A DNA stretch of 64,000 bases from SAR92 clade bacterium H231 (GTDB taxonomy: Bacteria; Pseudomonadota; Gammaproteobacteria; Pseudomonadales; Porticoccaceae), in the NCBI GenBank assembly GCA_025153775.1, contig JAOALC010000001.1, positions 496,001-560,000 of the forward strand. Reading direction: 5' to 3'. The notes beneath the pieces are model-generated. The model was not told the origin of the DNA, searched no databases, and worked only from the letters and a program-made list of their open reading frames with translations. Each line of letters starts with the position of its first letter. The stretch's first letter is position 1. The translations under genes were made by a program, and so were the position numbers. Below are positions 15,934 to 40,815 of this stretch, one piece after another.

Positions 15934-15958
15934 TTGTCATCTATGATGCCAAAATAAT
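15934..15958 (+). promoter_or_regulatory. Operator-promoter site 1 (upstream of DUF2855 gene)
   Basis: Palindrome TTGTCAT-CTATG-ATGCCAA at 15934-15952, directly followed by AATAAT (15953-15958) as a -10. The right arm ends 41 bp before the ATG at 15994. It shares spacing, arms and abutting -10 with sites at 22171, 22889, 32431 and 40791. Confidence 0.65.
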
Positions 15959-15993
15959 TAGAAGCATTCACCAAGACAGCTAAGGATGTACCA

Positions 15994-17076
15994 ATGACTG
16001 ACTGTATCGCACTATGGGTAGACCGGGCCGATATCACCAAAACCAAGCAGGTCGTGTCGCAGATACCGGAGTTAGCTGATGGCCAGATTGTGGTGGCCAT
16101 AGACAGGTTTGGTCTGACCGCCAATAATGTCAGCTATGCTGTTACTGGCGACAGTATTGGCTACTGGCAGTTTTATCCTGCTGAGGGCGGATGGGGCATA
16201 GTGCCGGTTTGGGGCTGTGCTACGGTGACGGAGTCCAACTGTGGGGATATTCCCCTGGGCGAGCGGCTCTGGGGTTACTTTCCCATGGCCAGCCATGCGG
16301 TGCTGACGCCGGGCCATATTCATGAGGACTACTTTATAGATGTGGTGGAACACCGTCGCGAGTTACCGCTAATCTACAATCAATTCCGTCGCACCCAGGC
16401 CGAGCCAGAGTTTCTACAAAAGATGGAAAATGAGCGCTGCCTGCTGTTTCCGCTATTTATGACGTCCTACCTAATTTATGACTACTTAATTGATAACCAA
16501 TTTTTTGGTGCTCAGCAGGTGGTGATTGGTTCTGTATCCTCCAAGACCGGTTTTGGTCTGGCGCAGATGCTGCACAATGACCCACAGGTGACCCAGGCAG
16601 TGATTGGGGTAACTTCTGCGGGCAATAGGGAATTTGTTAAGGGGCTGGGTTGCTGTGATCAGATAGTCCTGTATAACAATGAGGCAGAGATTGATGCCGG
16701 GTTGCCCACAGCCTATGTAGATATGTCTGGCGATGCTCGGCTCACTATTAGTCTGCACAGTCATCTTGGCGAGAATATGGTTGAGAGCTGTATGGTGGGA
16801 GGCAGTCATTGGCAGGAGGGCGGCAAGGTGGGTGAGTTGCCCGGTGCTCGTCCTCGGTTCTTCTTTGCGCCGGGGCAAATTGAAAAACGCAATAAAGAAT
16901 GGGGGCCAGGGGTCGCTATGGTTAAGGCCATGACCGCCAGTGCCGACGTGGCTGAGCGCGTGGTGGCTGATATTAATATTGAATGGGTTAATGGTGTTGA
17001 GAGTCTGGCCGAGCATTGGGCTCAGCTACTGGATAATCAAATTGCGCCAAGCCGCGGCCTGATGGTCGCTCTATGA
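15994..17076 (+). CDS. DUF2855 family protein
   Basis: Protein of 360 residues matching the DUF2855 family, which is distantly like zinc-free medium-chain dehydrogenase/reductases: an N-terminal catalytic-like domain (LTANNVSYAVTGDSIGYWQFYP, GVVPVWG-type WGIVPVWGCATVTES) and a Rossmann-like segment (VVIGSVSSKTGFGLAQML). The function of the family is not known. It overlaps the downstream sulfatase start by 4 bp (ATGA), so the two are translationally coupled, and it has its own copy of the shared operator upstream. Confidence 0.85.
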   Translation: MTDCIALWVDRADITKTKQVVSQIPELADGQIVVAIDRFGLTANNVSYAVTGDSIGYWQFYPAEGGWGIVPVWGCATVTESNCGDIPLGERLWGYFPMASHAVLTPGHIHEDYFIDVVEHRRELPLIYNQFRRTQAEPEFLQKMENERCLLFPLFMTSYLIYDYLIDNQFFGAQQVVIGSVSSKTGFGLAQMLHNDPQVTQAVIGVTSAGNREFVKGLGCCDQIVLYNNEAEIDAGLPTAYVDMSGDARLTISLHSHLGENMVESCMVGGSHWQEGGKVGELPGARPRFFFAPGQIEKRNKEWGPGVAMVKAMTASADVAERVVADINIEWVNGVESLAEHWAQLLDNQIAPSRGLMVAL

Positions 17077-18761
17077 AAAAACTATCCGCCATCGCAGTCC
17101 TATTAATTATTGTTGGTTTTGCGGGCTGGCAACAACGTGTTGAACTGCTGGTTTGGGTGGCACCCAAGTTGCTTGAGATAACTAACCCGGTTGCGGAAAA
17201 TAGAGCCCTAAGCTGGTCTCAGGGCCCAGAGGTAGCGTCCCAAGATCCCGCCGACAGGCCGCCAAACATAGTGCTGATTGTTACCGATGATATGGGCTTT
17301 AATGATATTTCTCTCTACAACGGCGGTGCCGGCGATGGGACTCTGCAAACCCCTAGCATTGATGCATTGGCAGAGCAGGGCGTGCGTTTTACCAATGGCT
17401 ATGCCGCCAATGCGGTCTGTGCGCCATCTCGCGCGTCGATTATGACCGGGCGCTACTCCACCAGATTTGGTTTTGAATTTACGCCATTTTATAAAACCGG
17501 TGTGACTATCTTCCGCTGGATGGAGGAGTTACAGCCCAGCGAGATTCCGCTATTTTTGGATGAGGCCAATGCGGCGACCATGAAGCCAATCGGCGAGCTG
17601 GGCCTGCCGCCTGCAGAGATTACTATTGCTGAATTACTCAAACAGCAGGGCTATTACACAGCACATGTGGGCAAATGGCATCTGGGTTCTGTGGATGGCA
17701 TGGTGGCGACCAAACAGGGGTTTGACGACAGCCTGGAGTTAAAAGGGGTGCTGTATCTACCAGAAGATCATCCAGATGTAGTTAATGCCAAAGTGCAGGG
17801 GGATCGTATTGATCGCATGGTTTGGGCCACAGGTACCTATTCGGCCACCTTTAATGGCCTGGGTAACCCCGGGGAGCAGTTTAAGCCCAAAGGTTATCTA
17901 ACAGACTATTACACGGATCAGGCGGTGGAGGTGATTGAGAATAATCGCCATCGTCCCTTCTTTTTATATCTGGCTCACTGGGGAGTTCACAACCCATTGC
18001 AGGCTTCTCGGGAAGACTACGATGCGCTGTCCCATATTGCGGATCATCGGCTGCGGGTCTATTCCGCCATGATTCGCGCAGTAGATCGCAGTGTGGCGCG
18101 AGTTACCCAGGCATTGGAAGACAATGGTCTGGCGGACAACACCCTGATTATTTTGACCAGTGATAATGGCGGGGCGGGCTATATAGGCTTACCCAACGTC
18201 AACAAGCCTTACCGCGGCTGGAAGCTCAATCATTTTGAAGGTGGCACCCATGTGCCCTTTATGGCGAAGTGGCCAGCGCAGATTAATCCTGGCACCAGCA
18301 TGGACGCGCCGATCCATCACAATGATATTTACAGCACCATTGCTGCGGCAGCGGGCGTGCAGGTACCTCAGGATCGCAAAATAGATGGGGTTGATTTGCT
18401 GCCCTATATTCGCAATGAGGTTGAGGGAGAGCCCCATCAAACATTATTTTGGCGTGAGGGACATCAGCAGGCAGTGCTGCATAAGGGTTGGAAGTTAATC
18501 AGTGCCGAGCAGTCTAACTTGCCACAACCGGCACCAAGGGCTAAATGGTTATTTAATCTGGCACTGGACCCCACAGAGCAGAATAATTTGGCCGCAGATA
18601 ATCTGGAGAAAGTGGCAGAGTTAGAGACATTGTTAGCCGCCCATAATGCTGAGCAGGTAGAGCCACTTTGGCCCAGTGTATTTAATGCACCCCAGTTGAT
18701 TGATAAGACCAGTAATGAGCCCTTCGAAGAAGGCGATGAGTTTATTTATTGGCCGAATTAA
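17073..18761 (+). CDS. Cys-type sulfatase (membrane-anchored or secreted)
   Basis: Alkaline-phosphatase-superfamily hydrolase of 562 residues that should cleave sulfate esters. The N-terminus is one hydrophobic helix (about 5-22), either anchor or signal. Metal-binding TDDMGFND follows, then the sulfatase signature CAPSRASIMTGR, whose Cys must be converted to formylglycine. VGKWHLG, LAHWGVHNP and TSDNGG are also visible. No formylglycine-generating enzyme gene is in the window. It is coupled to the DUF2855 gene and ends at a bidirectional terminator. Confidence 0.92.
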   Translation: MKKLSAIAVLLIIVGFAGWQQRVELLVWVAPKLLEITNPVAENRALSWSQGPEVASQDPADRPPNIVLIVTDDMGFNDISLYNGGAGDGTLQTPSIDALAEQGVRFTNGYAANAVCAPSRASIMTGRYSTRFGFEFTPFYKTGVTIFRWMEELQPSEIPLFLDEANAATMKPIGELGLPPAEITIAELLKQQGYYTAHVGKWHLGSVDGMVATKQGFDDSLELKGVLYLPEDHPDVVNAKVQGDRIDRMVWATGTYSATFNGLGNPGEQFKPKGYLTDYYTDQAVEVIENNRHRPFFLYLAHWGVHNPLQASREDYDALSHIADHRLRVYSAMIRAVDRSVARVTQALEDNGLADNTLIILTSDNGGAGYIGLPNVNKPYRGWKLNHFEGGTHVPFMAKWPAQINPGTSMDAPIHHNDIYSTIAAAAGVQVPQDRKIDGVDLLPYIRNEVEGEPHQTLFWREGHQQAVLHKGWKLISAEQSNLPQPAPRAKWLFNLALDPTEQNNLAADNLEKVAELETLLAAHNAEQVEPLWPSVFNAPQLIDKTSNEPFEEGDEFIYWPN

Positions 18762-18776
18762 AGGGCATTTTTAAGC

Positions 18777-18809
18777 GAAAAAAAAGCACAGCCTGAGCTG
18801 TGCTTTTTT
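18777..18809. terminator. Bidirectional terminator between sulfatase and SDR genes
   Basis: Stem AGCACAGC / GCTGTGCT with a CTGA loop (18785-18804), flanked by an A tract on the left and a T tract on the right, so it can end transcripts on both strands of the convergent pair. Confidence 0.88.
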
Positions 18810-18826
18810 GTATCAGAGGCGGGCCT

Positions 18827-19591
18827 CTAAACCGTTAAGCCACCATCCACAACAATGCACTCGCCATTGGTGTAACTGCCCGCATTCGACACTAGATAAA
18901 GCACAGTACCCGCCATCTCATCCGGCTCCGCATGGCGATGCATAGGAATAGTAGCAATGGCCTGCTTATAGATTTTTTCATCGCTAAATAGCGCACCGGC
19001 AAACTGTGTCTTGGTCATACCTGGCAACAGAGCGTTTACTCTGATACCCAGCCCGCCACATTCTTTGGCAAAGGCTTTGGTCATATTAACCACAGCGGCT
19101 TTGGTGATGGAGTAAATGCCCTGCATTGGACCGGGTTGCAATGCATTGATAGACGCAGTGTTGACGATCGAGCCACCACCGTTTTCGCGCATTATCTTGC
19201 CCGCTTCGATGGACATAAAGAAATAGCCGCGAATATTCACATCAACTGTCTTGGTGTAGGCACCCAGATCCGTATCCAGAATATGCCCAAAGTAAGGGTT
19301 GGTTGCTGCATTGTTAATCAGAATATCTAGCTTGCCATGCATCTGCTTGATCTGGGCAAAACAGTTTTCAATATCACCCATATTGCCCACATGGCAGGCC
19401 AACGCCTCAGCGCTGCCGCCAGCCGCGGTAATAGCATCGGCCACAGTTTGGCAGCCATCAATCTTGCGGCTGGAGACTATGACATGGGCCCCTTGCTCGG
19501 CAAGAAGTTTAGCTATTGATTCGCCGATGCCACGGCTTGCACCAGTGACTAGGGCAATTTTGCCAGTTAGATCAAAAAGATTGGTCGCCAT
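18827..19591 (-). CDS. SDR family oxidoreductase
   Basis: NAD(P)-dependent dehydrogenase of 254 residues from the second in-frame start (ATG at 19591, with GGAGAAAA upstream). Cofactor motif TGASRGIGE, NNAA (in INNAATNPYFG), and the catalytic YSITKAA (Tyr-x3-Lys) are present, and it ends with the usual GECIVVDGGLTV. Likely a 3-hydroxyacyl-CoA or alcohol dehydrogenase, or ketoreductase. It is last of a three-gene minus-strand operon with the enoyl-CoA isomerase-like gene and acyl-CoA synthetase upstream. Confidence 0.92.
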   Translation of the reverse strand: MATNLFDLTGKIALVTGASRGIGESIAKLLAEQGAHVIVSSRKIDGCQTVADAITAAGGSAEALACHVGNMGDIENCFAQIKQMHGKLDILINNAATNPYFGHILDTDLGAYTKTVDVNIRGYFFMSIEAGKIMRENGGGSIVNTASINALQPGPMQGIYSITKAAVVNMTKAFAKECGGLGIRVNALLPGMTKTQFAGALFSDEKIYKQAIATIPMHRHAEPDEMAGTVLYLVSNAGSYTNGECIVVDGGLTV

Positions 19592-20310: not shown

Positions 20311-22119
20311 TTAGTATCCTGCTGTACCATTAATTAACTGCTCATAAAATTCAGGGTCTAGCAGAACGTACTGTTTTGATTTGGGCTGGCGCACATAAAT
20401 AGGCTGTGCCACCTGATCCAAGTGGTAGGCCTGCTTTTTCAGCGTACCTTTAAACAGCTTGAAGGTGCCGGTGGTGTCCTGCTCATCTTCAATGCGAACA
20501 AACACTGGGCGGGCAAAGGCCGGTAGTTCTCGATCGGTATACTCAGTAAAAGCCGCAACATCGAAAGTTTGGCCGGGCACTAGAGTGATGGCTGCCATGC
20601 CTGCTTTACCCTCGGCACCGGGAATATCCACGCCATACACATTGCTGATTTCAACCTGGTCACAGGCATTGAGAATCTCGCCCACTTCGTTGGTTGAGAC
20701 ATTTTCTGCGCGCCAGCGGAAGGTGTCGCCCACGCGGTCGACAAACTGGTAATGGGGCAGGCCCATAGCAAAGCCCACATCAATCTTGCGAATCAGATCG
20801 CCGGTATTAAACCAGCGATCACCGGGCTCGCGCAGATCAGTGAGTATTTTGTCATTGGTGGCATCGGCATTTTTATAGCCATCGAACTTATAGCGATCAT
20901 CAATTTGGCCGAGCATGAGGCCAGCCTCACCAAGTTCCACCTCAATTACCTTGCCGTTTTCGTCTAGCACAATTTCATCGTTCTCAATATCGTACTTCAC
21001 CAGCATCACCACCACAGAGCCAGTGCCGATGGTGGATTCTTTATTGAGGATATTCAGGAAGGAGACATTGCCTTCACTGGAGCCATAGATTTCAGTAATG
21101 CGCTTAACGCCAAAGCGGTTGCGAAAGGTATCCCAGATATCTGGCCGTAAACCATTGCCCAGCATGGTTTTGAGCGGATTATTTTTCTCATCCGGACATT
21201 CTGGAGCCATGGCCAGGTAGCGGCACAGCTCACCCACATAGACAAACAATGTGGTCTGATATTTTTGTACCTCAGGCCAAAACTGAGTGGCAGAAAAGCG
21301 ACGGCGCACAAACATAGAGGCACCAGAGTGCAGACAGCTGCCAATTCCTAGCAGAAAGCCCGTGGCATGGTAAAGCGGCAGACAGATATACATGCGGTCT
21401 GAAGGCTTAGCATGAAAACCCACTGTAGAATAGGGCTTGGCCGCAGACATAATTTTGCGGTGATAGATAACAGCTGGCTTGGGTAGACCAGTGGTGCCCG
21501 AGGTGAAGATGTACAGGGCAATTTCTCCAGCAGCAATATCATCGGTCTCTGGGTGATTGTGGGTCGGCATATCGGCCAGTGTGGCGCTAAAGTCGGTAGC
21601 CCAGTCAGGTGAGGTCTGGTCCAGCTGAGGGTCTTTTAGCCAGAGATAATCTTTGTCTGCAAGCTCAAGCTGGTCTTTTACGCCCTCAACTGAGGCCAGT
21701 AACTCTTGTCCGATCAGGCACTTCGTGGAGTTTACGGTAGTAATACAATGGGCCAGAGGGCGATCGGTAAGGCCGGTATTAATCAAGCCGGCTGTAGCAC
21801 CAATTTTGGCCAGGGCAAAGATGCTGCACAGCAGCTCCGTGCGGTTCTCAATCAGCACCGCCACACAGTCGCCGCGGGTGACACCCTGCTGTTTAAAGCT
21901 GTGGGCAAATTGATTGGTCAGGGCATTAAACTCAGACCAGTTGAGTTCCTGGCCTTCGCAGACAATGGCAGATTTGTTTGGGTATTTGGCCGCGGTAGTT
22001 TGAAACATCAGTCCCAGGGAGGTTTTTTCATCATCTCCAGGGGGCTTAAAGAAAATTAGTGTGGGTGCGGCTTGGAAAAAATTCCACATCACACGAAAAA
22101 ATTCAATAACTTTGCTCAT
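20311..22119 (-). CDS. Very-long-chain/FATP-type acyl-CoA synthetase
   Basis: AMP-forming ligase of 602 residues, the size and architecture of FATP/FadD6-like enzymes that activate long-chain, branched or sterol-like acids. Motifs: LYIFTSGTTGLPKPAVIYHRK (A3), YGSSEG (A5), WFNTGDLIRKIDVGF (A7-A8), FRWRAENVSTNEV and GTFKLFKGTLKK near the catalytic Lys. An amphipathic/hydrophobic N-terminus (FFRVMWNFFQAAPTLIFF) suggests membrane association. It is first of the minus-strand operon; the shared operator at 22171-22189 lies 51 bp upstream with a minus-strand AATAAT abutting it. Confidence 0.9.
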   Translation of the reverse strand: MSKVIEFFRVMWNFFQAAPTLIFFKPPGDDEKTSLGLMFQTTAAKYPNKSAIVCEGQELNWSEFNALTNQFAHSFKQQGVTRGDCVAVLIENRTELLCSIFALAKIGATAGLINTGLTDRPLAHCITTVNSTKCLIGQELLASVEGVKDQLELADKDYLWLKDPQLDQTSPDWATDFSATLADMPTHNHPETDDIAAGEIALYIFTSGTTGLPKPAVIYHRKIMSAAKPYSTVGFHAKPSDRMYICLPLYHATGFLLGIGSCLHSGASMFVRRRFSATQFWPEVQKYQTTLFVYVGELCRYLAMAPECPDEKNNPLKTMLGNGLRPDIWDTFRNRFGVKRITEIYGSSEGNVSFLNILNKESTIGTGSVVVMLVKYDIENDEIVLDENGKVIEVELGEAGLMLGQIDDRYKFDGYKNADATNDKILTDLREPGDRWFNTGDLIRKIDVGFAMGLPHYQFVDRVGDTFRWRAENVSTNEVGEILNACDQVEISNVYGVDIPGAEGKAGMAAITLVPGQTFDVAAFTEYTDRELPAFARPVFVRIEDEQDTTGTFKLFKGTLKKQAYHLDQVAQPIYVRQPKSKQYVLLDPEFYEQLINGTAGY

Positions 22120-22164: not shown

Positions 22165-22195
22165 ATTATTATGGCATTTACTATGACAATATAAT
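22165..22195. promoter_or_regulatory. Operator-promoter site 2 (bidirectional)
   Basis: Palindrome ATGGCAT-TTACT-ATGACAA at 22171-22189. On the plus strand TATAAT (22190-22195) follows directly; on the minus strand AATAAT (complement of 22165-22170) follows directly. It could control both the rightward dehalogenase-remnant/DUF1330 unit and the leftward synthetase operon. Confidence 0.65.
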
Positions 22196-22231
22196 AGTTA
22201 TCTGCTTGATACCAAGTATATCGGAGTTAAT

Positions 22232-22383
22232 ATGATTTCTGGAAAATTCAATTATAAAAAGTACGTCCAGTCAGTCATGGGCCAAACCAGGCCGAGGTGA
22301 CTGGGGCAGGTCATGATTATATGCAGGAGGATTCCCCCGTTAAAATTGGTTGCGCTATTGCCCAATGGCGCAAGAATAATTAA
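22232..22383 (+). pseudogene. Haloalkane dehalogenase remnant (large internal deletion)
   Basis: An intact-looking 5' end (GGAG then ATG at 22232) reads MISGKFNYKKYVQSVMGQT, like the N-terminus of LinB/DmbA-type haloalkane dehalogenases. From 22282, in another frame, the sequence reads PNQAEVTGAGHDYMQEDSP then VKIGCAIAQWRKNN and a stop at 22381-22383. This matches the family C-terminus [23 protein letters not shown]. The catalytic core, roughly 250 codons, is missing and the joint is out of frame near CCAAACC. The remnant keeps its operator-promoter, so the gene was once a member of the regulon. It accounts for most of the 305-bp gap between genes here. Confidence 0.82.
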
Positions 22384-22424
22384 TGTAGCTGTAAACAATA
22401 AAACTTATAAAAGAGGCTAATGCA

Positions 22425-22739
22425 ATGTCAGATATACCTGTTTACATGGTGGTTAACCTAAAAGTCACAGATGCGGATGAATACCGCAAATACGAGAAAG
22501 GTTTCTTCCCCATACTGAAAAAATACGGTGGTAGCTTTTTAACCTTTGATGACAGCCCGATTACTCTGGAAGGTCTAACACCAAGAGAGGGGCGCATGAT
22601 TATCTTTAGTTTTCCCTCTGAAGAGGTGGCCAATGCCTGGTGGGCCGATCAGGAGTATCAAGAGCTCAGTGCATTCCGTCGCGCTGGTACCCAAATGGAA
22701 TTTCTAACCATGGTGCATGGATTACCGCCGCGGGGCTAG
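22425..22739 (+). CDS. DUF1330 family protein
   Basis: Small protein of 104 residues with the DUF1330 dimeric alpha/beta-barrel fold signature: YMVVNLKVTDADEYRKYEKG, then SPITLEGLTPREGRMIIFSFPS and AWWADQEYQELSAFRR. Family members are enzyme-like or stress-related with no agreed activity. It lies 41 bp after the dehalogenase remnant and is probably expressed from the same operator-promoter at 22171. The 211 bp after it hold operator site 3 and no supported gene. Confidence 0.85.
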   Translation: MSDIPVYMVVNLKVTDADEYRKYEKGFFPILKKYGGSFLTFDDSPITLEGLTPREGRMIIFSFPSEEVANAWWADQEYQELSAFRRAGTQMEFLTMVHGLPPRG

Positions 22740-22888: not shown

Positions 22889-22913
22889 GTGGCATAATAG
22901 ATGTCAAAATAAA
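22889..22913 (+). promoter_or_regulatory. Operator-promoter site 3 (upstream of the beta-oxidation operon)
   Basis: Palindrome GTGGCAT-AATAG-ATGTCAA at 22889-22907, followed at once by AATAAA (22908-22913). The right arm ends 43 bp before the GTG/ATA start region at 22951, the same distance as in sites 1, 2 and 5. Confidence 0.6.
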
Positions 22914-22950: not shown

Positions 22951-23541
22951 GTGATAACAGCAACCAGCATCTGGGGAGCAGCTGCACTTATCTATGGCGT
23001 ATTTTGGGCCTGGTATGTGGGTTTAAAGGGCAAACTATCTGCAACGGAAGTAGAGCAGTATCTGCTGCGCTTTGACGCCTTAGGCCTAGCCCCTGACAGG
23101 TTGGAAAACCTGCGCTATTTTATGGCTAACGATGATGGCCGTGAGTGGTTTATGGTCAATTTACTTGAACTTAAGTCGCCTAAGCGAGAGTCAGCCAAAT
23201 TACTGCAAAGCTATAGCAAAATCTTTTTGGGCGGCCTGCTTAAACGGGCAGGGCATCCGTTTTTTGTTGCCAATGCCCAGGCTAGAAATATAGAGAACCT
23301 CCACTGTGAGCATGCAGATAACTGGACCTCAACCGGGATAATTCGCTATCGCAGCCGCCGCGACCTAGCCGAAGCGTTGCTAAATACCTTCGGCAGTGAC
23401 CACCATGCAGATAAGCTGGCATCGCTGGAAAAGACATTGGCCTTTCCCGCTACCGCCAGCATGTTAATGGGCTCGCCGCGGGTACTAGTGGCCCTGGGCC
23501 TGGCCTTGGTTGCCGCCTTAACTCACATTGCAATTTCATAA
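22951..23541 (+). CDS. Membrane-flanked hypothetical protein, first gene of the beta-oxidation operon
   Basis: Unrecognised protein of 196 residues starting with GTG (GGGGGTCTCA upstream). A transmembrane helix at each end (about 4-24, WGAAALIYGVFWAWYVGL; about 175-195, VALGLALVAALTHIAIS) brackets a soluble core. The core has GREWFMVNLLELKSP and LLQSYSKIFLGGLLKRAGHPFFV, reminiscent of the DUF1330 barrel next door, but the match is loose. As leader gene of an operon with its own operator copy it may be a membrane scaffold or uptake factor; that is speculation. Confidence 0.7.
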   Translation: MITATSIWGAAALIYGVFWAWYVGLKGKLSATEVEQYLLRFDALGLAPDRLENLRYFMANDDGREWFMVNLLELKSPKRESAKLLQSYSKIFLGGLLKRAGHPFFVANAQARNIENLHCEHADNWTSTGIIRYRSRRDLAEALLNTFGSDHHADKLASLEKTLAFPATASMLMGSPRVLVALGLALVAALTHIAIS

Positions 23542-23560
23542 TAAAAACACAGAGATCACT

Positions 23561-24670
23561 ATGAGCGATAACCTCCTATTTAAGCCATTTCAACTGGGTA
23601 ACCTGCAGTTAAAAAACCGCATTGTAATGGCCCCTATGACGAGAAATTTCTCTCCTAATAACAATATTCCCGGTGACAATGTGGTGGACTATTACCGCCG
23701 CCGTGCTGAAGGTGGTGTGGGTCTGGTAATTACCGAAGGCACCTGCATCGGCCATAAAGGGGCCAGCGGCTATCCAGGGGTGCCTTATTTTCATGGTGAG
23801 GAGCGTCTGGCGGGCTGGAAGAAAGTGGTAGATGCGGTACATGAGGCTGGTGGAAAAATTGCGCCTCAGCTTTGGCATGTGGGCGCAGTGCGCAAAACTG
23901 GGGCTCTACCAGAGGGCGATGTACCAGGCTATGGCCCCTCAGGGATGAATGTGCCGGGCAAGGTTAACCGCGAAGTGATGACCCAGCAGGATATAGATGA
24001 CGTGGTTGCCGCCTTTGCTCAGGCTGCTGCCGACGCCAAAGCCATTGGCTGCGATGCGGTTGAATTGCACGGTGCCCATGGTTATCTAATTGATCAGTTT
24101 TTCTGGGAAGGCACCAATCAGCGGGTAGACCAATATGCCGGCTCTATCGAAAACCGCGGTCGCTTTGCCGTAGAGGTTATTAGCGCCGTGCGCGCTGCCG
24201 TTGGCCCGGACTATCCTATTATTTTGCGTTGGTCCCAGTGGAAACAGCAGGACTATACTGCCCGTTTGGCCGTTACCTCAGAAGAGTTAGAGCGTTTTCT
24301 AATGCCGTTGTCAGACGCGGGAGTGGATATCTTTCACTGTTCACAGCGACGCTTCTGGGAGCCGGAGTTTGCAGGCAGTGAATTAAATTTAGCGGGCTGG
24401 ACCCAGAAGATCACTGGCAAGCCAGCTATCACCGTGGGTAGTGTTGGACTGGATGCAGACTTTACTCCCAAGCCCGGCGAAGCGCATTTTAAAGAAGCGG
24501 ACCCCGCCAGCCTGGATACATTACTGCATCGCCTAGACCAGAATGAGTTTGAACTAGTGGCCGTGGGCCGCGCACTGATTTCCAATCCGGACTGGGTCAA
24601 CCTGGTGCAAGCCAAGCGAATGGACGATCTAAAACCATTCCGCAAAGAACATCTGGGCGAATTGGTCTAA
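23561..24670 (+). CDS. Old yellow enzyme family NADH:flavin oxidoreductase
   Basis: FMN-dependent reductase of 369 residues from ATG 23561. Signatures are LKNRIVMAPMTRNFSPNN at the flavin site, APQLWHVG, and the substrate-binding HGAHGYLIDQFFW, followed by RVDQYAGSIENRGRFAVEVI and GRALISNPDWV. Such enzymes reduce activated C=C bonds of enones, nitroesters or dienoyl-CoA-like substrates; a single-domain OYE, without the FeS domain of 2,4-dienoyl-CoA reductase. It starts 19 bp after the upstream membrane protein. Confidence 0.92.
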   Translation: MSDNLLFKPFQLGNLQLKNRIVMAPMTRNFSPNNNIPGDNVVDYYRRRAEGGVGLVITEGTCIGHKGASGYPGVPYFHGEERLAGWKKVVDAVHEAGGKIAPQLWHVGAVRKTGALPEGDVPGYGPSGMNVPGKVNREVMTQQDIDDVVAAFAQAAADAKAIGCDAVELHGAHGYLIDQFFWEGTNQRVDQYAGSIENRGRFAVEVISAVRAAVGPDYPIILRWSQWKQQDYTARLAVTSEELERFLMPLSDAGVDIFHCSQRRFWEPEFAGSELNLAGWTQKITGKPAITVGSVGLDADFTPKPGEAHFKEADPASLDTLLHRLDQNEFELVAVGRALISNPDWVNLVQAKRMDDLKPFRKEHLGELV

Positions 24671-24723
24671 GGCAGACTGCGTCAATAAAAAGTACAGGCC
24701 AGAAACCGAATACGGAGAACAGA

Positions 24724-25500
24724 ATGGAACTGCAAGACAAAATAGTCGTGATCACCGGTGCAGGCAGCGGCATAGGTCGAGCCCTCGCCCTGCGTTTTCA
24801 GGCTGAAGGCGCCAAACAAATAGTCTGTGCCGATATTAATCTGGCCAATGCCCAGGAGACCGCCGATATGATTGGCGGCGTGGCCATGCTGGCCGATGTA
24901 GCCAAAGAGGAAGACACCGCACGCATCATCGAAGACACAGAAGCCAATATAGGCCCCATCGATCTATTTTGCTGCAATGCCGGCGTTGGCTATGGAGAGA
25001 GTATTCATTCGCCCAACGAGCAGTGGCAGTCGATCTGGGATATCAATGTTATGTCCCATGTCTATGCTGCACGTCACCTGGTACCGCGCATGGTCGAGCG
25101 GGGCAGTGGCTACTTCCTCAATACCTCTTCAGCTGCAGGCCTGCTTAATCAAATTGGTGGTGCAGCCTATGGGGTAACCAAGCATGCTGCTGTGGGCTTT
25201 GGCGAATGGTTGGCCATACATCACAAACACGAAGGCATAGGCGTCTCAATGCTGTGCCCGCAGGCTGTGCGCACCGCCATGACAGCAGTGGATAATGACG
25301 CTGTTGCCGCAGCAGCAAATAACGGCATGATTGAGCCCGAAGAGCTGGCAGACACAGTAGTAGAAGGGTTGCGCGACGAGAGCTTTTTGATCTTGCCGCA
25401 CCCAATTGTGAAAGAATTTATGCAGAATAAAACCAACAACTACGACCGTTGGATTGGTGGCATGAACAAGTTGATGCGCAAAATTACTGGCATTATTTAA
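24724..25500 (+). CDS. SDR family oxidoreductase
   Basis: NAD(P)-dependent dehydrogenase of 258 residues with cofactor motif ITGAGSGIGRAL, NAGVGYGES, catalytic Ser in LNTSSAAG and YGVTKHAAVG (Tyr-x3-Lys). The C-terminal extension (DESFLILPHPIVKEFMQNKTNNYDRWIGGMNKL) is found in SDRs associated with acyl-CoA degradation clusters. Substrate unknown. Third gene of the operon, with ATG preceded by CGGAGAAC. Confidence 0.92.
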   Translation: MELQDKIVVITGAGSGIGRALALRFQAEGAKQIVCADINLANAQETADMIGGVAMLADVAKEEDTARIIEDTEANIGPIDLFCCNAGVGYGESIHSPNEQWQSIWDINVMSHVYAARHLVPRMVERGSGYFLNTSSAAGLLNQIGGAAYGVTKHAAVGFGEWLAIHHKHEGIGVSMLCPQAVRTAMTAVDNDAVAAAANNGMIEPEELADTVVEGLRDESFLILPHPIVKEFMQNKTNNYDRWIGGMNKLMRKITGII

Positions 25501-25530
25501 TAGCAAATTTAAGTATAAGGGGAGCAGGCA

Positions 25531-26757
25531 ATGGGTTTTGAATTAACACCGAGAGCAGAGGATTTAAATGAACGCCTAAAGGTATTTATGGACGAGCATA
25601 TCTACCCGCGGGAGCGCGATTACGAAGAGTTTACCGGCGACCACAATAATCTGTGGCAATACCCGGACTGGTATCAGGGCCTGAAAGATGAAGCTAAAAA
25701 GCAGGGCCTGTGGAACCTGTTTCTACCCGAAGAATACAAGCCCTGGAGCCCCGGCTTAACCAATCTGGAGATTGCGCCGCTATTTGAAACCATGTCCAGA
25801 GCTGCCTGGTCCCAACAGATATTTAACTGTAATGCCCCTGACCGCGGCAATATGGAAGTGCTTGCTAAATACGGCACTCCAGAGCAGCAAGAGCAATGGT
25901 TGTTACCCCTGTTAGCCGGTGATATCCGCTCTGCCTACGCCATGACTGAGCCGGACGTGGCCTCATCCGATGCTACCAATATGGAGCTCAAAATTGAGCG
26001 TGACGGCGATGAATATGTTTTAAATGGCCGCAAATGGTGGACCACCAACGTGATCGGCTCCGCCTGCAAAATTATGCTGGTGATGGGAAAATCCAACCCA
26101 GATGCACCGCGCCACCAACAGCACAGTACTATACTGGTACCCACAGATACCCCAGGGGTCAAAATGTCACGGCCGCTTAAAGTGTTTGGCGAATACCATT
26201 CTCCTGGTGGCGAGGGCGATATGATCTTTAGTGATGTACGTGTGCCCGTCACTAATCTAATTCTCGGCGAAGGCCGTGGTTTTGAAATCGCTCAGGGCCG
26301 ACTAGGGCCGGGTCGTTTCCAGTACGCCATGATGTTTGTGGGTATGGCCCAGCGCAGTCTGGAGCTGATGTGTGAGCGTGCTCAGCAGCGGGTAGCCTTT
26401 GGTGAAACCCTGAGCAAAAAAACCAGCGTGCAACACGAGATTGCCCGCAGCCGCTGCGATATTGAACAGTGTCGATTATTGGTGCTGGCCGCCGCTGAAA
26501 AAATGGATAAATACGGCATAGACGGCGCTCGCGAAGATATCAGCATGCTCAAAATTGTTGCCCCAAAAATGTGTGAAGATGTGTCCAGCCGCGCCATGCA
26601 AATCTTTGGTGGCATGGGCGTGTGCCAAGACACGCCACTGGCCCATATCTGGACAACAAGTAGATTCTGTCGTATCGCCGACGGCCCAGACGAAGTGCAT
26701 ATGTCTCAGCTGGCCAAAATGACCATGCGCTCTCTCAACAGACAGTCGCAGTCTTAG
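25531..26757 (+). CDS. Acyl-CoA dehydrogenase, ACAD10/11-like
   Basis: FAD enzyme of 408 residues. ACAD landmarks are YAMTEPDVASSDATNM (FAD/substrate binding), WWTTNVIG, LGPGRFQYAMMFVGMAQRSLELM, QIFGGMGVCQDTPLAHIW and RIADGPDEVH at the C-terminus. The N-terminus LNERLKVFMDEHIYPRERDYEEF matches the ACAD10/11 group, whose members act on 4-hydroxyacyl-CoA together with an APH-type kinase. An APH-family phosphotransferase is encoded at 43968 in this cluster, which makes that pairing plausible here. Confidence 0.92.
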   Translation: MGFELTPRAEDLNERLKVFMDEHIYPRERDYEEFTGDHNNLWQYPDWYQGLKDEAKKQGLWNLFLPEEYKPWSPGLTNLEIAPLFETMSRAAWSQQIFNCNAPDRGNMEVLAKYGTPEQQEQWLLPLLAGDIRSAYAMTEPDVASSDATNMELKIERDGDEYVLNGRKWWTTNVIGSACKIMLVMGKSNPDAPRHQQHSTILVPTDTPGVKMSRPLKVFGEYHSPGGEGDMIFSDVRVPVTNLILGEGRGFEIAQGRLGPGRFQYAMMFVGMAQRSLELMCERAQQRVAFGETLSKKTSVQHEIARSRCDIEQCRLLVLAAAEKMDKYGIDGAREDISMLKIVAPKMCEDVSSRAMQIFGGMGVCQDTPLAHIWTTSRFCRIADGPDEVHMSQLAKMTMRSLNRQSQS

Positions 26758-26789
26758 ACAAAAAAAGAGACGAATATAGAGGATTTACA

Positions 26790-27617
26790 ATGAGTTTTTC
26801 ATCCAATGTACTAAGCATCGAAAAACAGGGCCAGGTTGGTATTATCTACCTGGACCGTGAAAGCAAATACAATGCGCTTTCCACTGAACTCTGGTCCACC
26901 ATACCCCTTGGGCTGGCCGCACTCTGCGAAGACCCAGAGATTGGTGCCATTGTGTTGGCGGGTCGCGGCAAGCACTTCTGTGCCGGTATTGATCTGGCTG
27001 AAGACGGCCTTAGCCAGCATAAAAAAGCCAAAGCTCGCTCCAAAGCCGAAGCCAATATTCAACAGCTGCACAACACCCAAAAATTCCAACAAGCTATTAG
27101 TTCATTGGCGGAATGTGAGTTGCCAGTTATTGCGGTAGTGCAGGGCTTCTGTCTGGGTGCCGGTGTTGATCTAATCACCGCCTGCGATATGCGTATTGCC
27201 AGTGCTTGCTCTGTGTTCAGTGTCCGAGAGACCCGCCTGGGCCTGGTGGCCGATGTGGGTACCTTGCAGCGCCTGCCGAAGATTCTAAATGCTGGTCACG
27301 TAGCCGAGCTGGCCTATACGGGCAAAGACATTAAAGCTGATCGCGCTGAAAAGATTGGGCTGGTCAATGATGTCTATGAGTCCGCGGAAGCCACTATGGA
27401 AGCCGGTATGGCTCTGGCTCAGGAGATTGCAGGTAACTCGCCTATGGCCGTGCGCGGCACCAAGTTTGTTCTGCGCCAATCGGAGAATCTAACCGACGAG
27501 CAGAGTTTAATGGTCAATGGTATGTACACCCTGATGACCAGTCTGCAGTCGAATGATTTGCAAGAGGGAATTATGGCATTTGCCGAGCGCAGACCAGCGA
27601 AGTTTACTGGCAGCTGA
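26790..27617 (+). CDS. Crotonase, delta(3,5)-delta(2,4)-dienoyl-CoA isomerase-like
   Basis: Protein of 275 residues. Oxyanion-hole regions are GKHFCAGIDLAE and VQGFCLGAGVDLITACDMRIAS. The segment VRETRLGLVADVGTLQRLPK with its Asp matches the ECH1-type dienoyl-CoA isomerase motif ADVGTLQRLPK, rather than a plain hydratase. Last gene of the 22951-27617 operon and followed by a strong terminator. It would serve degradation of unsaturated acyl-CoAs alongside the ACAD and SDR. Confidence 0.9.
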   Translation: MSFSSNVLSIEKQGQVGIIYLDRESKYNALSTELWSTIPLGLAALCEDPEIGAIVLAGRGKHFCAGIDLAEDGLSQHKKAKARSKAEANIQQLHNTQKFQQAISSLAECELPVIAVVQGFCLGAGVDLITACDMRIASACSVFSVRETRLGLVADVGTLQRLPKILNAGHVAELAYTGKDIKADRAEKIGLVNDVYESAEATMEAGMALAQEIAGNSPMAVRGTKFVLRQSENLTDEQSLMVNGMYTLMTSLQSNDLQEGIMAFAERRPAKFTGS

Positions 27618-29894: not shown

Positions 29895-29932
29895 AGGATT
29901 CTCCATTGCTCTTTGTGAGTCTTGTTTTGTGA

Positions 29933-30520
29933 TTATTGTAGGGCCATTTCGATAAATTGCATACGGTCTTGCCCGAAAAACATATCGCCATCAATAAACA
30001 TGGTTGGCGCTCCAAAACAGCCTCTTTCGACGGCGGCTTCGGTATTACTAATTAATGCGGCTTTAACCTCTGGGTCCTGGGTGCCGGCAATTATGTGCTG
30101 TGCATCTAAACTGGCGTCGGTCAGTACTCTACTCACTACTTCCAGGTCGCCCATATTTTCACCATTGACCCAGATTGCGTCATAGACGGCGTCGACATAG
30201 TTATCAAAGTAGTCTTGGCCCAGAGCTGCTACTGCACCGCGCATCAGATTTAAGGTGTTGATCGGGAAATGGGGGTTAAAGCCCAGCTGCACCTGATAGA
30301 GTTTGGCAAAGCGGGGCAAGTCTTGGGTCATCATATACTTGCCTTTGGCAGGCACTGTGACCGGTGACATGTTGCCTGAGGCTTTAAACAGCCCACCCAG
30401 CAGAACAGGTTTGTAGTCTATGGTGCAGCCGTATTGTGCATTTAATTGTTGCAGACGCTTGTGGGCCAGATAGGCCGTGGGGCTGCCGAAATCAAAATAA
30501 AAGTCTATGGTTTTAGACAC
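29933..30520 (-). CDS. 2-hydroxychromene-2-carboxylate isomerase / DsbA-family protein
   Basis: Thioredoxin-fold protein of about 195 residues. I chose GTG 30520 (GAGGAAAGTGCA upstream); a longer start at 30553 is possible. It opens IDFYFDFGSPTAYLAHKRL, where Ser replaces the CXXC active site, as in glutathione-dependent HCCA isomerases (kappa-class GST relatives). GCFGAPTMFIDGDMFFGQDR near the C-terminus is family-typical. These act on aromatic intermediates in naphthalene-type pathways, but the substrate here is unknown. It lies 38 bp upstream of the PQQ dehydrogenase start. Confidence 0.88.
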   Translation of the reverse strand: MSKTIDFYFDFGSPTAYLAHKRLQQLNAQYGCTIDYKPVLLGGLFKASGNMSPVTVPAKGKYMMTQDLPRFAKLYQVQLGFNPHFPINTLNLMRGAVAALGQDYFDNYVDAVYDAIWVNGENMGDLEVVSRVLTDASLDAQHIIAGTQDPEVKAALISNTEAAVERGCFGAPTMFIDGDMFFGQDRMQFIEMALQ

Positions 30521-30639
30521 TGCACTTTCCTCTGCTGGGCAAGGTGGTTGCACACCTATTTACGGGGTCAGAGTAGCGCTGAGGCTGTTCCAGTGTAAAT
30601 CGAAAATGATGACCCATGAGTTCGGGTTTTAGAGCTATA

Positions 30640-31233
30640 TTAAGCGGCAGTAACCAATATTTCTAGCAGGTCGATTAGCATCGCTGCAGTGTCTTCGGCA
30701 CTGTTGGACTGATGGTCTCGCAGGCGATCCCAGTATTCAAATGACAGGGTGCCAATAATGGCTTCTTGACGTGGCTGCGGGAGTTGCTCAAGTTCCGGCA
30801 AGGCCTGTCGGATATCATTGCGGATTCTGCTTTGATACTTGGCATAGTTTTGTTTTAGGAAAGCAGATCGCCAGCGCCTAGTGGCTGTTGATTTTAAGAT
30901 ATTGGTGTTGCTCTCATAAAGCTGGGCTAAGGAGCTCACCACTTGGGCTATACGCTGCTTTAGCGGAAGTTTGATATCAATGTCGCTAATATTGTCTACA
31001 AAGTCCTTGCGCCATAGTTCATCAGCGGTGGCAAAAATAGCTTCCATATCTTCAAAGTGCCGGAACACTGAACGGATACCTACTTTTGCATGGTCGGCAA
31101 CTTGCTGTGCGGTGGGCACTAGGTTACCACCATCAATTAATTGCAGCATAGCTTCAACAATAACCTGACGGCTGCGGTCACTGCGCAAGCGGCGACCATC
31201 GACTTTTGTAGCTGGGCTTAAGCTGTCTGACAT
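30640..31233 (-). CDS. TetR family transcriptional regulator
   Basis: Protein of 197 residues. The N-terminal helix-turn-helix domain (about 12-65) reads RSDRSRQVIVEAMLQLIDGG then VADHAKVGIRSVFRHFEDMEAIF, and the rest is a helical ligand-binding domain. It stands in the middle of the accessory region, upstream of the isomerase and PQQ dehydrogenase on the same strand. A degraded copy of the shared palindrome lies 36 bp upstream of its start. It is the only TetR gene in the window, so it is the best candidate regulator of the palindrome-linked regulon; this is inference. Confidence 0.88.
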   Translation of the reverse strand: MSDSLSPATKVDGRRLRSDRSRQVIVEAMLQLIDGGNLVPTAQQVADHAKVGIRSVFRHFEDMEAIFATADELWRKDFVDNISDIDIKLPLKQRIAQVVSSLAQLYESNTNILKSTATRRWRSAFLKQNYAKYQSRIRNDIRQALPELEQLPQPRQEAIIGTLSFEYWDRLRDHQSNSAEDTAAMLIDLLEILVTAA

Positions 31234-31320: not shown

Positions 31321-32391
31321 TTATAGGTCATTACTGTTTACCACAATATCGGAGGAATTAGCGGGCAGTGAGATGCTAGTACCATCTTCTCCGAGGGTAT
31401 AGTTGCTAAATCGCTGATCAACCCCATCTAGCCAGAGGGCCTCGCTGCCGGGCAAGACCAGTGGTGGCACTATATGGTAGAAAAGCAGATGGCCTACATT
31501 GGCATCTCGTGCAGTTTCGGCGGCCTCTATGGGAGACGCATGATAGTCGATCACATCGTCAAAAATCTTCGCGGTGTTTGGCAGGCCGACGGCAGTGGCA
31601 GCTTGATTCATGGCGTTGAGCATTGCAGGGTTGAGTGCCTCATGGACCAGCAGGTCAATGCCCTGAGCAAACTCCTCTATATTGGCAGATTTGTTGGTGT
31701 CGCCAGAAATCAGAGCGCTGCGTCCCCTGTAGCTAAAGCGGTAGGCTACTGCCGGGGTTATGGGGAAATGATCCACTGCCAACATCTCCACCTTTAAACC
31801 ATCCTGCTCGTAGACTGTAATCAGTTCGCCCTCTGCCGGCAGTGGGGCACTGACAGCGGCCATGCCAGCACCGGTTAATGGTGCCACGGTATTGCCATGA
31901 TGATCATTGCGATAGATTTTGTCTTGGCCATAGGCCAGATTAAACCCGGCAACCACATTGGCTACGCCATCTGGTCCATAGATATTGAGGGGTGTACTGT
32001 TGTTGCCCGCCGCCCAGCGAATGGTGGCGACCTCACCAAGTCCATCAATATGGTCTGAGTGGAAGTGGGTCAAAAATACGCCACTGATATTGCCAGCCTG
32101 ATAGCCCATACGACCCAAATTGCGCAATCCATTGGCGCCTGCATCCACCAGAAACAGCTTGCCTGCGGCTACAACCGCAACACAGGGGCCGGAGCGATTG
32201 GGGGCTGGCATGGGGCCACCGGCGCCACAGAGAGCAATATGCAGACCATCGCCCAATGTATCGATCTTGTTACTGGCCAACAGAGCCTCTGCGCCTTTGG
32301 GAAGAATTCGCAGTGCTATATCACCGCGCTGGCTATAAATACCTGCGCCCAGAACAACAATACTAAGAACAATAATCGAAAACTTTTTCAT
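31321..32391 (-). CDS. Secreted MBL-fold metallohydrolase
   Basis: Protein of 356 residues from ATG 32391, which follows GAGGTGG closely. A signal peptide or anchor (IIVLSIVVLGAGIYS) precedes a metallo-beta-lactamase domain of the RNase Z/arylsulfatase type, with zinc motif THFHSDHIDG, VAVVAAGKLFLVDAGANGLR, SGDTNKS and LLFYHIVPP. It could hydrolyse a phosphate or sulfate ester or a lactone outside the cytoplasm. It is divergent from a GST-like gene, with operator site 4 between them. Confidence 0.87.
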   Translation of the reverse strand: MKKFSIIVLSIVVLGAGIYSQRGDIALRILPKGAEALLASNKIDTLGDGLHIALCGAGGPMPAPNRSGPCVAVVAAGKLFLVDAGANGLRNLGRMGYQAGNISGVFLTHFHSDHIDGLGEVATIRWAAGNNSTPLNIYGPDGVANVVAGFNLAYGQDKIYRNDHHGNTVAPLTGAGMAAVSAPLPAEGELITVYEQDGLKVEMLAVDHFPITPAVAYRFSYRGRSALISGDTNKSANIEEFAQGIDLLVHEALNPAMLNAMNQAATAVGLPNTAKIFDDVIDYHASPIEAAETARDANVGHLLFYHIVPPLVLPGSEALWLDGVDQRFSNYTLGEDGTSISLPANSSDIVVNSNDL

Positions 32392-32423
32392 GGCCACCTC
32401 AGTTTGATGCAAGATTTAAAGAG

Positions 32424-32455
32424 TGACATGTTGGCATATATCATGTCAATATAAT
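32424..32455. promoter_or_regulatory. Operator-promoter site 4 (MBL / GST divergent region)
   Basis: Palindrome TTGGCAT-ATATC-ATGTCAA at 32431-32449, followed directly by TATAAT (32450-32455) for the rightward GST gene. An overlapping inverted repeat TGACATG (32424-32430) / CATGTCA (32442-32448) extends the symmetry to the left, toward the MBL gene. Confidence 0.65.
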
Positions 32456-32518: not shown

Positions 32519-33556
32519 ATGTCTCAGCACAGTCCCATTACCTTAATTGGTTCACCGCCATCCCCTTACACCAGAAAAATGATCGCGCTCATGCGATACC
32601 GCCATATTGCTTACCGAATTATCTGGGACAATCCGGCCGCGATACTGGCAGAGATTGGGGTTGCCAAGCCTAAGGTGGCCCTGCTGCCGACCTATCTGTT
32701 GCCCGATGAGACAGGAGAACTCCAAGCGGTGTGCGATTCGACACCGATTATTCGCCGCTTGGAAGCGGAGTATGAGGGGCGCTCTGTTATCCCAGATGAT
32801 CCGGCTATGGCGTTTATCGATTATCTACTGGAAGATTTTGCCGATGAATGGGCCACTAAATATATGTTCCATTACCGCTGGCATTTTGATGCAGATGCAG
32901 ACAATGCAGGCTCGTTGTTGCCACTGTTTCAGAAGGTTAACTTGCCCGCTGATGCCTTTAACCATTTTAAGTCTTATATCACCGAGCGTCAGGTGGGCCG
33001 ACTGCATGTGGTGGGGTCTAACGAGATAACAGCGCCGGTGATCGATGCCAGCTATAAACGTTTGCTCGTAGCCATGGAGGCCCATTTCGCTCAGCAACCC
33101 TACTTGATGGGCGACCGCCCCGGGGCTTCGGACTTTGCACTCTATGGTCAGCTAACTCAGCTGGTGGGCTTTGAACCCACGTCAAGGGCCATTGCCCATA
33201 ATCTATCCTCCCGCACCGTGGCCTATACCGGCCTGATGGAAGATCAAACTGGTCTTGAGCCGCAAACCAGTGATTGGAGCAGGGCAGAGACTGTGCCCGA
33301 GACGCTGAAGAGTATTCTTAATGAGGTGGGTCATGTCTATGCCCCGGCTCTGCTTGCTAATGCACAGGCTTTGCAAGCCGGAGAGAAAACCTGGGAGACA
33401 GAGATTGATGGCAGCCGCTGGACTCAGCAGACCTTTACCTATCAGGGCAAGTGCTTACAGTGGATTAATCAGGAGTATCAGGCCCTGAGCGAAGCGGACC
33501 GGGCTAGGGTAGATGAGTTGCTGGCAGGCACCGGCTGCGAAAAGATTATTCTTTAG
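32519..33556 (+). CDS. Long GST-like protein with C-terminal extension (paralogue 1)
   Basis: Protein of 345 residues, well above the usual 200-230 for glutathione S-transferases. A thioredoxin-fold N-terminal domain (about 1-85; SPPSPYTRKMIALMRYRHIAYR, CDSTPIIRRLEAEY) and an all-helical domain (about 95-225; YLMGDRPGASDFALYGQL) are followed by about 120 extra residues ending TGCEKIIL. It shares this layout with the 373-residue protein at 39540. Ser/Tyr near SPYTRK could activate a thiol. Expressed from operator site 4. Confidence 0.85.
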   Translation: MSQHSPITLIGSPPSPYTRKMIALMRYRHIAYRIIWDNPAAILAEIGVAKPKVALLPTYLLPDETGELQAVCDSTPIIRRLEAEYEGRSVIPDDPAMAFIDYLLEDFADEWATKYMFHYRWHFDADADNAGSLLPLFQKVNLPADAFNHFKSYITERQVGRLHVVGSNEITAPVIDASYKRLLVAMEAHFAQQPYLMGDRPGASDFALYGQLTQLVGFEPTSRAIAHNLSSRTVAYTGLMEDQTGLEPQTSDWSRAETVPETLKSILNEVGHVYAPALLANAQALQAGEKTWETEIDGSRWTQQTFTYQGKCLQWINQEYQALSEADRARVDELLAGTGCEKIIL

Positions 33557-37719: not shown

Positions 37720-37721
37720 CT

Positions 37722-39512: not shown

Positions 39513-39539
39513 TAACACTTATTCGACGAGTACAACTCT

Positions 39540-40661
39540 ATGACCCATGCCCTCTATGCCTTACCCCATTCATTATATTCTGGCCGAGCCCGCTCCTACC
39601 TGATTAAAAACAATATTCCCTTCCAGGAGTTTTCCTGTGGCCATGAAAGTTATAAAGCGGAGATTGTGGCCGAAGCCAAGCTGGCTACCATTCCGGTACT
39701 GCGCACCGAAGAGGGACAGGTGATTCGCGATGGCGCTGCTATTATTGAGTATTTCGAAGCGGCTAACGGTCGCCCCTGTCTGCCGGCAACGCCAAAGCAG
39801 CAAATTATCAGTGGGCTTTTTGATCTGATTGGTGCCGAGGGCCTGCTGCGTCCCGCCATGCATTACCGCTGGAATTTTCCCGAGGAGAATCTGTCTTTTC
39901 TGCACTACCACTTTTTTCATTCGCAGCGGGACCACCCAGAGCGCGAGGCTAAAACCCAATATATGATGGATAAGATGCGCTATGCAGCCACTGTATTTGG
40001 GGTTACTGATGATAGCCGCGAGCTGGTAGAGACTCTGTACATGGAGTTTTTACTGGCCCTGGATAAGCATTTTGAGCAGTACCCCTATCTGTTGGGTTGG
40101 AAACCCTGCATAGGTGACTTTGGTTTATTGGCGCCGCTTTTTGCTCATCTGGGTCGCGACCCAAAGCCATTACAGATAATGCAGCAGCAGGCTGTACATG
40201 TGTATCGCTGGGTGGAACGTATGAATCGTTCAAATCAGGATGCGCCGGAGTGCTATAACGCGGGCTCTGGCTTTCTGGCAGATGATCAGATTCCGGATAC
40301 CTTGCTGACAGTGCTGCGCGCTGCGGCGCAAGATTTTCTGCCCGAGACCAGAGCTGCTGCACAGTCTATTAATGGCTGGCTAGCGGACAACCCTGCGGTC
40401 AGTGGCGATAGGGCCTCGCGTTACTTGGGGCAGAATGACGGCAAATCCCACTTTGTAGTGCGCGGGCAGAGCTTTGAGACCGGCGCCCAACCTTACAGAT
40501 TTTTCCAGCTGCAGATAGTTCAGGATGCCTATAAATCTTGCGATGACGCTGAGCGTGCCGGCATAGAGACTATGCTGGATTCTTGTGGGCTGCAGGAGTT
40601 GCTGACAATTGAGCTCGACCGGCGTCTGGAGCAGCGGGATAATTTGGAGGTCTGGGTTTAG
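39540..40661 (+). CDS. Long GST-like protein with C-terminal extension (paralogue 2)
   Basis: Protein of 373 residues. N-terminal thioredoxin-fold domain (about 1-85; LPHSLYSGRARSYLIKNNIPFQ, VIRDGAAIIEYFEA), helical GST domain (about 90-240; YPYLLGWKPCIGDFGLLAPLF), then about 125 additional residues containing SHFVVRGQSFETGAQPYRFF. The extension aligns with that of the 345-residue paralogue at 32519 (shared pattern of PETL..L, then a region ending in a short DELL/TMLD helix). Last gene of the 34073-40661 run. Confidence 0.84.
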   Translation: MTHALYALPHSLYSGRARSYLIKNNIPFQEFSCGHESYKAEIVAEAKLATIPVLRTEEGQVIRDGAAIIEYFEAANGRPCLPATPKQQIISGLFDLIGAEGLLRPAMHYRWNFPEENLSFLHYHFFHSQRDHPEREAKTQYMMDKMRYAATVFGVTDDSRELVETLYMEFLLALDKHFEQYPYLLGWKPCIGDFGLLAPLFAHLGRDPKPLQIMQQQAVHVYRWVERMNRSNQDAPECYNAGSGFLADDQIPDTLLTVLRAAAQDFLPETRAAAQSINGWLADNPAVSGDRASRYLGQNDGKSHFVVRGQSFETGAQPYRFFQLQIVQDAYKSCDDAERAGIETMLDSCGLQELLTIELDRRLEQRDNLEVWV

Positions 40662-40790
40662 CCATGGCCTCTAAGCCCCTTTATTTCGCAACCCCATAGT
40701 CATTATTGGTTAAGGCATATCCAAGATTGCTGGGTTACTATAATTCAGATTTGAACGACTTTTGATTAAAGGTTGATTCTAGTATTTTAT

Positions 40791-40815
40791 TTGGCATAAT
40801 TAGTGCCAATATATT
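40791..40815 (+). promoter_or_regulatory. Operator-promoter site 5 (upstream of the multifunctional enzyme)
   Basis: Palindrome TTGGCAT-AATTA-GTGCCAA at 40791-40809 (TTGGCA and TGCCAA are perfect complements), followed directly by TATATT (40810-40815). The right arm ends 39 bp before ATG 40849. Confidence 0.65.

Follow-up and report, generated by a model that had tools for sequence, protein, structure and literature searches.

The question raised by this locus is whether five similar palindromes, spread over a 64,000-nucleotide stretch of the genome of SAR92 clade bacterium H231, answer to a single regulator, and if so which protein that is and what it may control. The stretch, called here the window, is C1:496001-560000 in the genome G000, whose 7 contigs total 2.93 Mb. 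An earlier note had placed the palindromes at 15934, 22171, 22889, 32431 and 40791, and our motif search of the window recovered all five coordinates. The pattern it proposed, TTGGCAT-N5-ATGNCAA, is exact at 32431 (+ strand) and 15934 (- strand) but carries one mismatch at 22171, 22889 and 40791, and TTGDCAT-N5-ATGHCAA describes the five window sites better. The operator consensus reached in this study is WTGDCAY-N5-RTGHCAW, with A/T flanks ATA...TAT.

Each palindrome stands before genes of likely catabolic character or between divergent units. Site TTGTCATCTATGATGCCAA (15934..15952, +; weight-matrix (PWM) score 21.2) is abutted by AATAAT and lies 41 bp before the DUF2855 gene (15994..17076, +) of a unit shared with a sulfatase (17073..18761, +). 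Site ATGGCATTTACTATGACAA (22171..22189, not assigned to a strand), abutted by TATAAT, is flanked by two divergent units, as had been claimed: an AMP-binding, acyl-CoA ligase-like enzyme on the minus strand (20311..22119), 51 bp away, and on the plus strand a stretch with the remnant of a haloalkane dehalogenase C-terminus (22186..22430). Site GTGGCATAATAGATGTCAA (22889..22907, +), abutted by AATAAA, precedes by 43 bp the gene at 22951, whose unit (22951..27617, +) encodes an unknown 196-aa protein, an OYE-type oxidoreductase, an SDR, an acyl-CoA dehydrogenase and an enoyl-CoA hydratase. Site TTGGCATATATCATGTCAA (32431..32449, likewise without strand) occupies the divergent promoter region between a GST-fold protein (32519..33556, +), on whose side TATAAT abuts, and an MBL-fold hydrolase (31321..32391, -), 39 bp away when the hydrolase is taken to begin at its likely start, ATG 32391. 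Finally, site TTGGCATAATTAGTGCCAA (40791..40809, +), with TATATT abutting, lies 39 bp before a FadJ-like enoyl-CoA hydratase/hydroxyacyl-CoA dehydrogenase gene in a unit (40849..45005, +) completed by an NMO-type enzyme and an APH-type kinase. These hexamers are those listed in the earlier note. Its distances from right arm to start codon also stand (measured here as 41, 42, 43, 69 and 39 bp), except that the ATG at 22232 assigned to site 22171 opens a frame of only 22 codons.

Genes for adenylylsulphate kinase and ATP-sulfurylase are found at 46306-48244, just past the regulon genes and near the sulfatases, with no PWM operator there. A few kb ahead of the first operator are genes for a Rieske ring-hydroxylating oxygenase alpha subunit (10596-11792) and an NMO-type enzyme (11947-12906), likewise with no PWM operator of their own.

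The protein encoded at 30640..31233 on the minus strand, a TetR-type regulator, was already the guess of the earlier note and, on sequence grounds, appears to be the best candidate for binding these sites. It is the sole one of 19 TetR_N matches in the genome that falls in the window, and no other regulator was present among the 40 window ORFs scanned with Pfam. Downstream of it on the same strand are genes for a DsbA-like (thioredoxin-fold) protein (29933..30553, -) and a PQQ-dependent alcohol dehydrogenase with a cytochrome domain, or quinoprotein (27687..29906, -). We infer that these same-strand genes, in the order MBL-TetR-DsbA-quinoprotein with the MBL hydrolase first, form an operon. 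As in the TetR family, a palindromic operator lies at or near the regulator's own promoter. The window protein scores 20.6 bits against Pfam TetR_N, below the curated cut-off of 24; the same helix-turn-helix model (PF00440) is matched by 25 of 25 aligned family members at E <= 0.01 (best 1.4e-10). Matches by sequence to solved TetR-type structures are weak (best 1.2e-5), and no NCBIfam model matches the window protein at E <= 0.01, the FabR, PsrA, KstR and RutR equivalogs included. Homologues at E 1e-5 or better occur in 45 of 114 genomes, its own included, and the named relatives at the top of the list are mostly Porticoccaceae/SAR92 bacteria.

A PWM search of relatives, the check that the earlier note had proposed, found sites concentrated at the loci of these TetR homologues. 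We trained the PWM with 28 different sites, drawn from matches with no more than one mismatch in the first 40 loci, from the window (five) and from elsewhere in the own genome (three), after removal of one L098 match inside a gene. At a score of at least 14, the 40 stretches around TetR homologues (40 of 50 TetR matches, 660 kb), which are the training set, contain 57 sites against 0 for the reversed PWM. A further 53 of 80 TetR loci (904 kb), from which 27 SAR92-type or already used loci had been dropped, contain 96 against 1, although some of these loci are near-duplicates and the site of L223 is also that of L100, a training locus. We take 30 of the 53 to be Halieaceae, by name or by genus placement; eight are alphaproteobacterial, and the rest beyond the Halieaceae set are other or unspecified Gammaproteobacteria.

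These controls bear on the simplest alternative, that the palindromes are a product of chance or a repeat element. Allowing two mismatches, the literal pattern gives 10 strand matches in the window where 3.1 are expected, a count reached in 1 of 100 shuffles, so about three chance occurrences of that kind are to be expected, and several one-mismatch matches elsewhere in the genome fall inside genes. Against this, 5 window sites score at least 14 with a PWM trained partly on those same sites, whereas 200 column-permuted palindromic PWMs found 0.165 on average and never more than 2; the reversed PWM is nearly silent at the TetR loci, and the arms are kept in promoters that have otherwise diverged. 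At the level of sequence, conservation in relatives is stronger evidence against chance than the window statistics. The TetR-GST promoter region had no homologue in the plasmid collection searched. A chance origin of the five palindromes was rejected on the reversed and column-permuted controls, and chance or a repeat element keeps only a negligible probability. The claim that the sites agree too well for chance thus survives, backed by both kinds of control and by conservation.

Linkage to the regulator is evident in the further loci, where 48 of 53 carry a site (1 of 53 with the reversed PWM) and 18 of 53 have it within 200 bp upstream of the TetR start (0 reversed). Because of these 18 loci, the TetR gene is probably autoregulated. 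In TetR-bearing genomes, a hand count put 10 of the 35 exact sites no farther than 10.5 kb from the TetR gene, against about 0.3 expected at random. Same-genus genomes with TetR (n = 36) have 103 sites against 9 in the control, and those without it (n = 14, counting as TetR-less G014 and G035, whose matches are weak, E about 5e-6) have 13 against 5. In some relatives operators come in pairs, spaced by 25 or 98 bp (L176:7941/7966; L212:6963/7061; L182 near 14695/14720), a hint of stronger or two-dimer control.

Some observations count against this TetR as owner of the operator. In the first set, a site scoring at least 14 is present in 31 of 40 loci and missing from 9, three of which (L088, L089, L090) have their best site, at 13.1, directly before TetR. 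Seven of the 13 sites in TetR-less genomes come from G029 (4 sites, 82% complete) and G031 (3 sites, 85% complete), where no TetR was detected. Another transcription factor might therefore own the operator, the TetR gene being merely one of its targets. That reading gains from the sites in these two genomes, from a search anchored on TetR loci and from a regulator scan that covered the window ORFs. It loses from the absence of any other regulator among the 40 ORFs scanned, from the 18 of 53 further loci in which a site directly precedes TetR, and from seven order-level genomes with no TetR detected (G070, G071, G075, G077, G088, G108, G112) in which the dehalogenase, one evaluated in each, has no site. 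We regard it as very improbable. It appears highly probable, in turn, that the palindrome serves the TetR-type protein of 30640-31233 as operator, and that this protein is a ligand-released repressor of its own operon and of a genome-wide gene set.

Counterparts in relatives were found for all five window sites. Those of sites 32431 and 40791 lie in relatives' promoters, the latter preceding homologues in L080, L081, L083, L085, L086, L116 and L200 and in G013, G048 and G029. The counterpart of 22889 precedes the homologue at distances of 38 bp (L074), 5 bp (L083) and 43 bp (L082). For 15934 a counterpart was found only in three distant loci (L100, L109, L223), where it stands before DUF2855 homologues. 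Site 22171 has its counterpart in L239 (genome G037), between a ligase homologue 75% identical to that of the window and an intact haloalkane dehalogenase (L239:757-1653; 396 bits, cut-off 241). That intact gene in a syntenic relative, together with a 29-residue match at 65% identity to the haloalkane dehalogenase of L178, supports the dehalogenase remnant that had been reported after 22171.

In an alignment of the GST/MBL promoter from 14 relatives, picked for having a site there, the conserved block comprises operator 32431, the TATA-type hexamer next to it toward the GST gene and, toward the MBL gene, an extra half-site, GTGACATG. This half-site (32423..32430, +) directly adjoins the operator. 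Conservation is 67-87% across its eight columns, compared with about 46% around them, L105 and L106 being out of register by one base. It recurs in L080, L081, L086, L108 and other loci, and by eye no second palindrome of the same spacing is formed with it.

The genes next to the sites in relatives are largely those of the window. Matches to window genes were obtained for 147 of 191 site-adjacent genes, a set that contains near-duplicates, counts some genes under two neighbouring sites and may have paralogues among its matches. The tallies include 29 for the MBL hydrolase, 24 for the GST, 24 and 4 for sulfatases (the 24 for that at 17073..18761), 14 for TetR, 11 for the 22951 gene, 9 for the FadJ-like enzyme, 6 for the APH kinase and 3 for DUF2855; the AMP-binding ligase was absent from the matched target genes among the 191. 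In the same genus, 29 loci were read; five sites were in genes and 24 intergenic, as defined by a greedy longest-ORF caller. Of these 24, some within TetR stretches, 19 adjoin a gene homologous to a target in the window or elsewhere in the own genome, and 5 have no matching neighbour.

A further search began with the haloalkane dehalogenase family and not with the motif. Fifty-seven matches were obtained, 30 of them with a locus and 28 evaluated, the ORF caller having placed no gene at the centre of L246 and L267. With a site threshold of 9 or more, a site is present no more than 122 bp upstream of 14 of the 17 same-genus dehalogenases (13 of the 14 at 14 or more) against 1 of 11 in other genera; the three without are a second, 348-aa paralogue. 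The one positive case outside the genus is in G072, which has TetR. Against the TetR-operator reading, G078 and G081 possess TetR and a dehalogenase without a site. Among dehalogenase homologues in the fetched loci, 10 of 18 have a site and 8 have none within 300 bp upstream, and these eight include the four closest Halieaceae-type dehalogenases, which also counts against it.

The five sites had been described as a local regulon. One regulon they do appear to be from the evidence above, but the word local does not hold. Matches with up to two mismatches occur at 143 places in the genome against 47 in the control, and the pattern WTGDCAYNNNNNRTGHCAW at 9 against 2 reversed, four of the nine being in the window (22889, with a G in first position, escapes it). 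Genome matches were viewed in context at 20 loci (L001-L020) and later at L225 and L226. Sites outside the window were retained at C1:330865, at an NMO-type gene with a divergent aldehyde dehydrogenase (site kept in G025 and G013); at C1:577187, found with one mismatch, at a haloalkane dehalogenase (kept in G007, G032, G042 and G036); at C1:582526, at a DJ-1 family gene 67% identical to site-linked Rhodobiaceae genes; at C1:700835, at an acyl-CoA dehydrogenase (kept in G039 and G040); and at C2:337763, at an unknown 231-aa gene (kept in G019) and a nitroreductase. As these sites precede genes whose homologues carry the site in relatives, the regulon is genome-wide, and a purely local one was rejected.

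Other genomic matches were set aside as likely false positives. Ten (L004, L005, L006, L007, L012, L014, L015, L016, L018, L020) are inside genes, and C3:379380 (L017), with HlyD and TonB neighbours, was dropped when no site-linked homologue was found. The CC-type half-site (TTGCCAT) was kept out of the consensus since all four of its matches viewed (L006, L007, L012, L015) are in genes. Palindromes of type TTGCCATAGGTAATGCCAT recur at C1:584946, C1:916239, C2:73642 and C3:80113, with L012 and L015 inside genes; they are not this operator. At C1:10035-10053 (L019) a look-alike with its own inner palindrome, ATGTCATATGACAT, lies between another TetR gene (C1:9307) and a TonB-dependent receptor gene. 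It is likely a false positive here and is probably the operator of that other TetR.

How the regulator would act depends on the position of the site within the promoter. Abutment to a -10-like hexamer, proposed earlier for the window, holds in part more widely: among 44 one-directional sites (68 divergent ones were left out), the hexamer directly downstream matches TATAAT in at least 5 of 6 positions at 13, against 4 on the mirrored upstream side and 0-2 at other downstream offsets. The four mirrored hexamers indicate, however, that part of the A/T flank reflects the symmetry of the operator. A -35 element in register is missing. Sought at spacers 12-23 in the same 44 sites, a -35 was found nowhere except in the operator's left arm, the sole TTGACA-like hexamer, at spacer 13. 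At spacers 15-19 the match to TTGACA is low (means 1.2-2.0 of 6). These promoters may be weak or may use something else, and the lack of a -35 in register makes simple promoter occlusion less certain.

The same data could mean that the motif is indeed the TetR operator while TetR acts on it as an activator or dual regulator, for a polymerase offered a -10-like hexamer with no -35 in register other than a left arm at spacer 13 would need help. The site covers the spacer next to the -10, though, which is the position of a repressor, and the -35 was scored as TTGACA, a model that leaves weak or lineage-specific elements outside. Most TetR proteins are repressors. Activation or dual control is accordingly rated as improbable. 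In the repressor model that we favor, a TetR dimer would sit on the 19-bp operator, cover the promoter from just upstream of the -10 into it, block polymerase and so repress the gene until released by a ligand, which would probably be a substrate or a CoA-thioester intermediate. Through site 32431 the protein would control its own operon, and its gene set would comprise sulfatases, haloalkane dehalogenase, GST, MBL hydrolase, DUF2855, the quinoprotein dehydrogenase and beta-oxidation enzymes. The sites, their conservation and their linkage to TetR and to the target genes can be read in the DNA; binding, repression, inducer and pathway we infer from them. Since the set combines a dehalogenase, a sulfatase, GST, hydrolases, a ligase and beta-oxidation enzymes, it suggests that the pathway breaks down unusual lipid-like compounds, perhaps halogenated or sulfated ones.

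A parallel is DhaR, a repressor of TetR type that acts on the haloalkane dehalogenase gene dhaA in Rhodococcus; the window regulator would resemble it in exerting TetR-type control over such a gene, a likeness at the level of description. No paper on the DhaR operator was among the matches listed.

Comparison with regulators of lipid metabolism is also instructive. In PMC5343134, PsrA, FadP and LiuQ are TetR-family regulators of catabolic regulons, palindromic operators of 15-25 nt are given for most regulators covered, and FabR controls fatty-acid synthesis. By description, our regulator is like PsrA, FadP and LiuQ in family, in its palindromic operator and in its apparent control of acyl-CoA catabolism genes; unlike them, it has no NCBIfam match, and its putative targets include dehalogenases, sulfatases, GST and MBL genes. 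FabR (NF008402) is the model that most members of the window TetR family match (17 of 25 at E <= 0.01, best 1.4e-8), whereas the window TetR itself does not match it and its target genes are catabolic. Among the matches listed from the open-licence literature there was no description of this TetR regulator, its operator or its regulon, which falls short of proving absence. The mode of action would be that of known TetR regulons, and the regulator and gene set appear to be undescribed.

What emerges for this catabolic regulon, common to several marine bacterial lineages, is an operator, a candidate regulator and a list of genes, by which DUF2855, the 196-aa protein at 22951 and a DJ-1 relative become attached to a pathway. 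A more specific proposal, which we offer tentatively and consider unlikely in its full form, is that a single regulator couples haloalkane dehalogenases, sulfatases, GST, quinoprotein dehydrogenase and beta-oxidation in marine SAR92, Halieaceae and some Rhodobiaceae, the inducer being a halogenated and sulfated natural compound (e.g., algal chlorosulfolipids) or a mixture of algal organohalogens and sulfate esters. Most haloalkane dehalogenases have, to our knowledge, no known natural substrate. If the proposal were true, the regulon would point to those of the marine enzymes, and a regulator that seemingly governs both dehalogenases and sulfatases makes the substrate question testable through the ligand that releases it.
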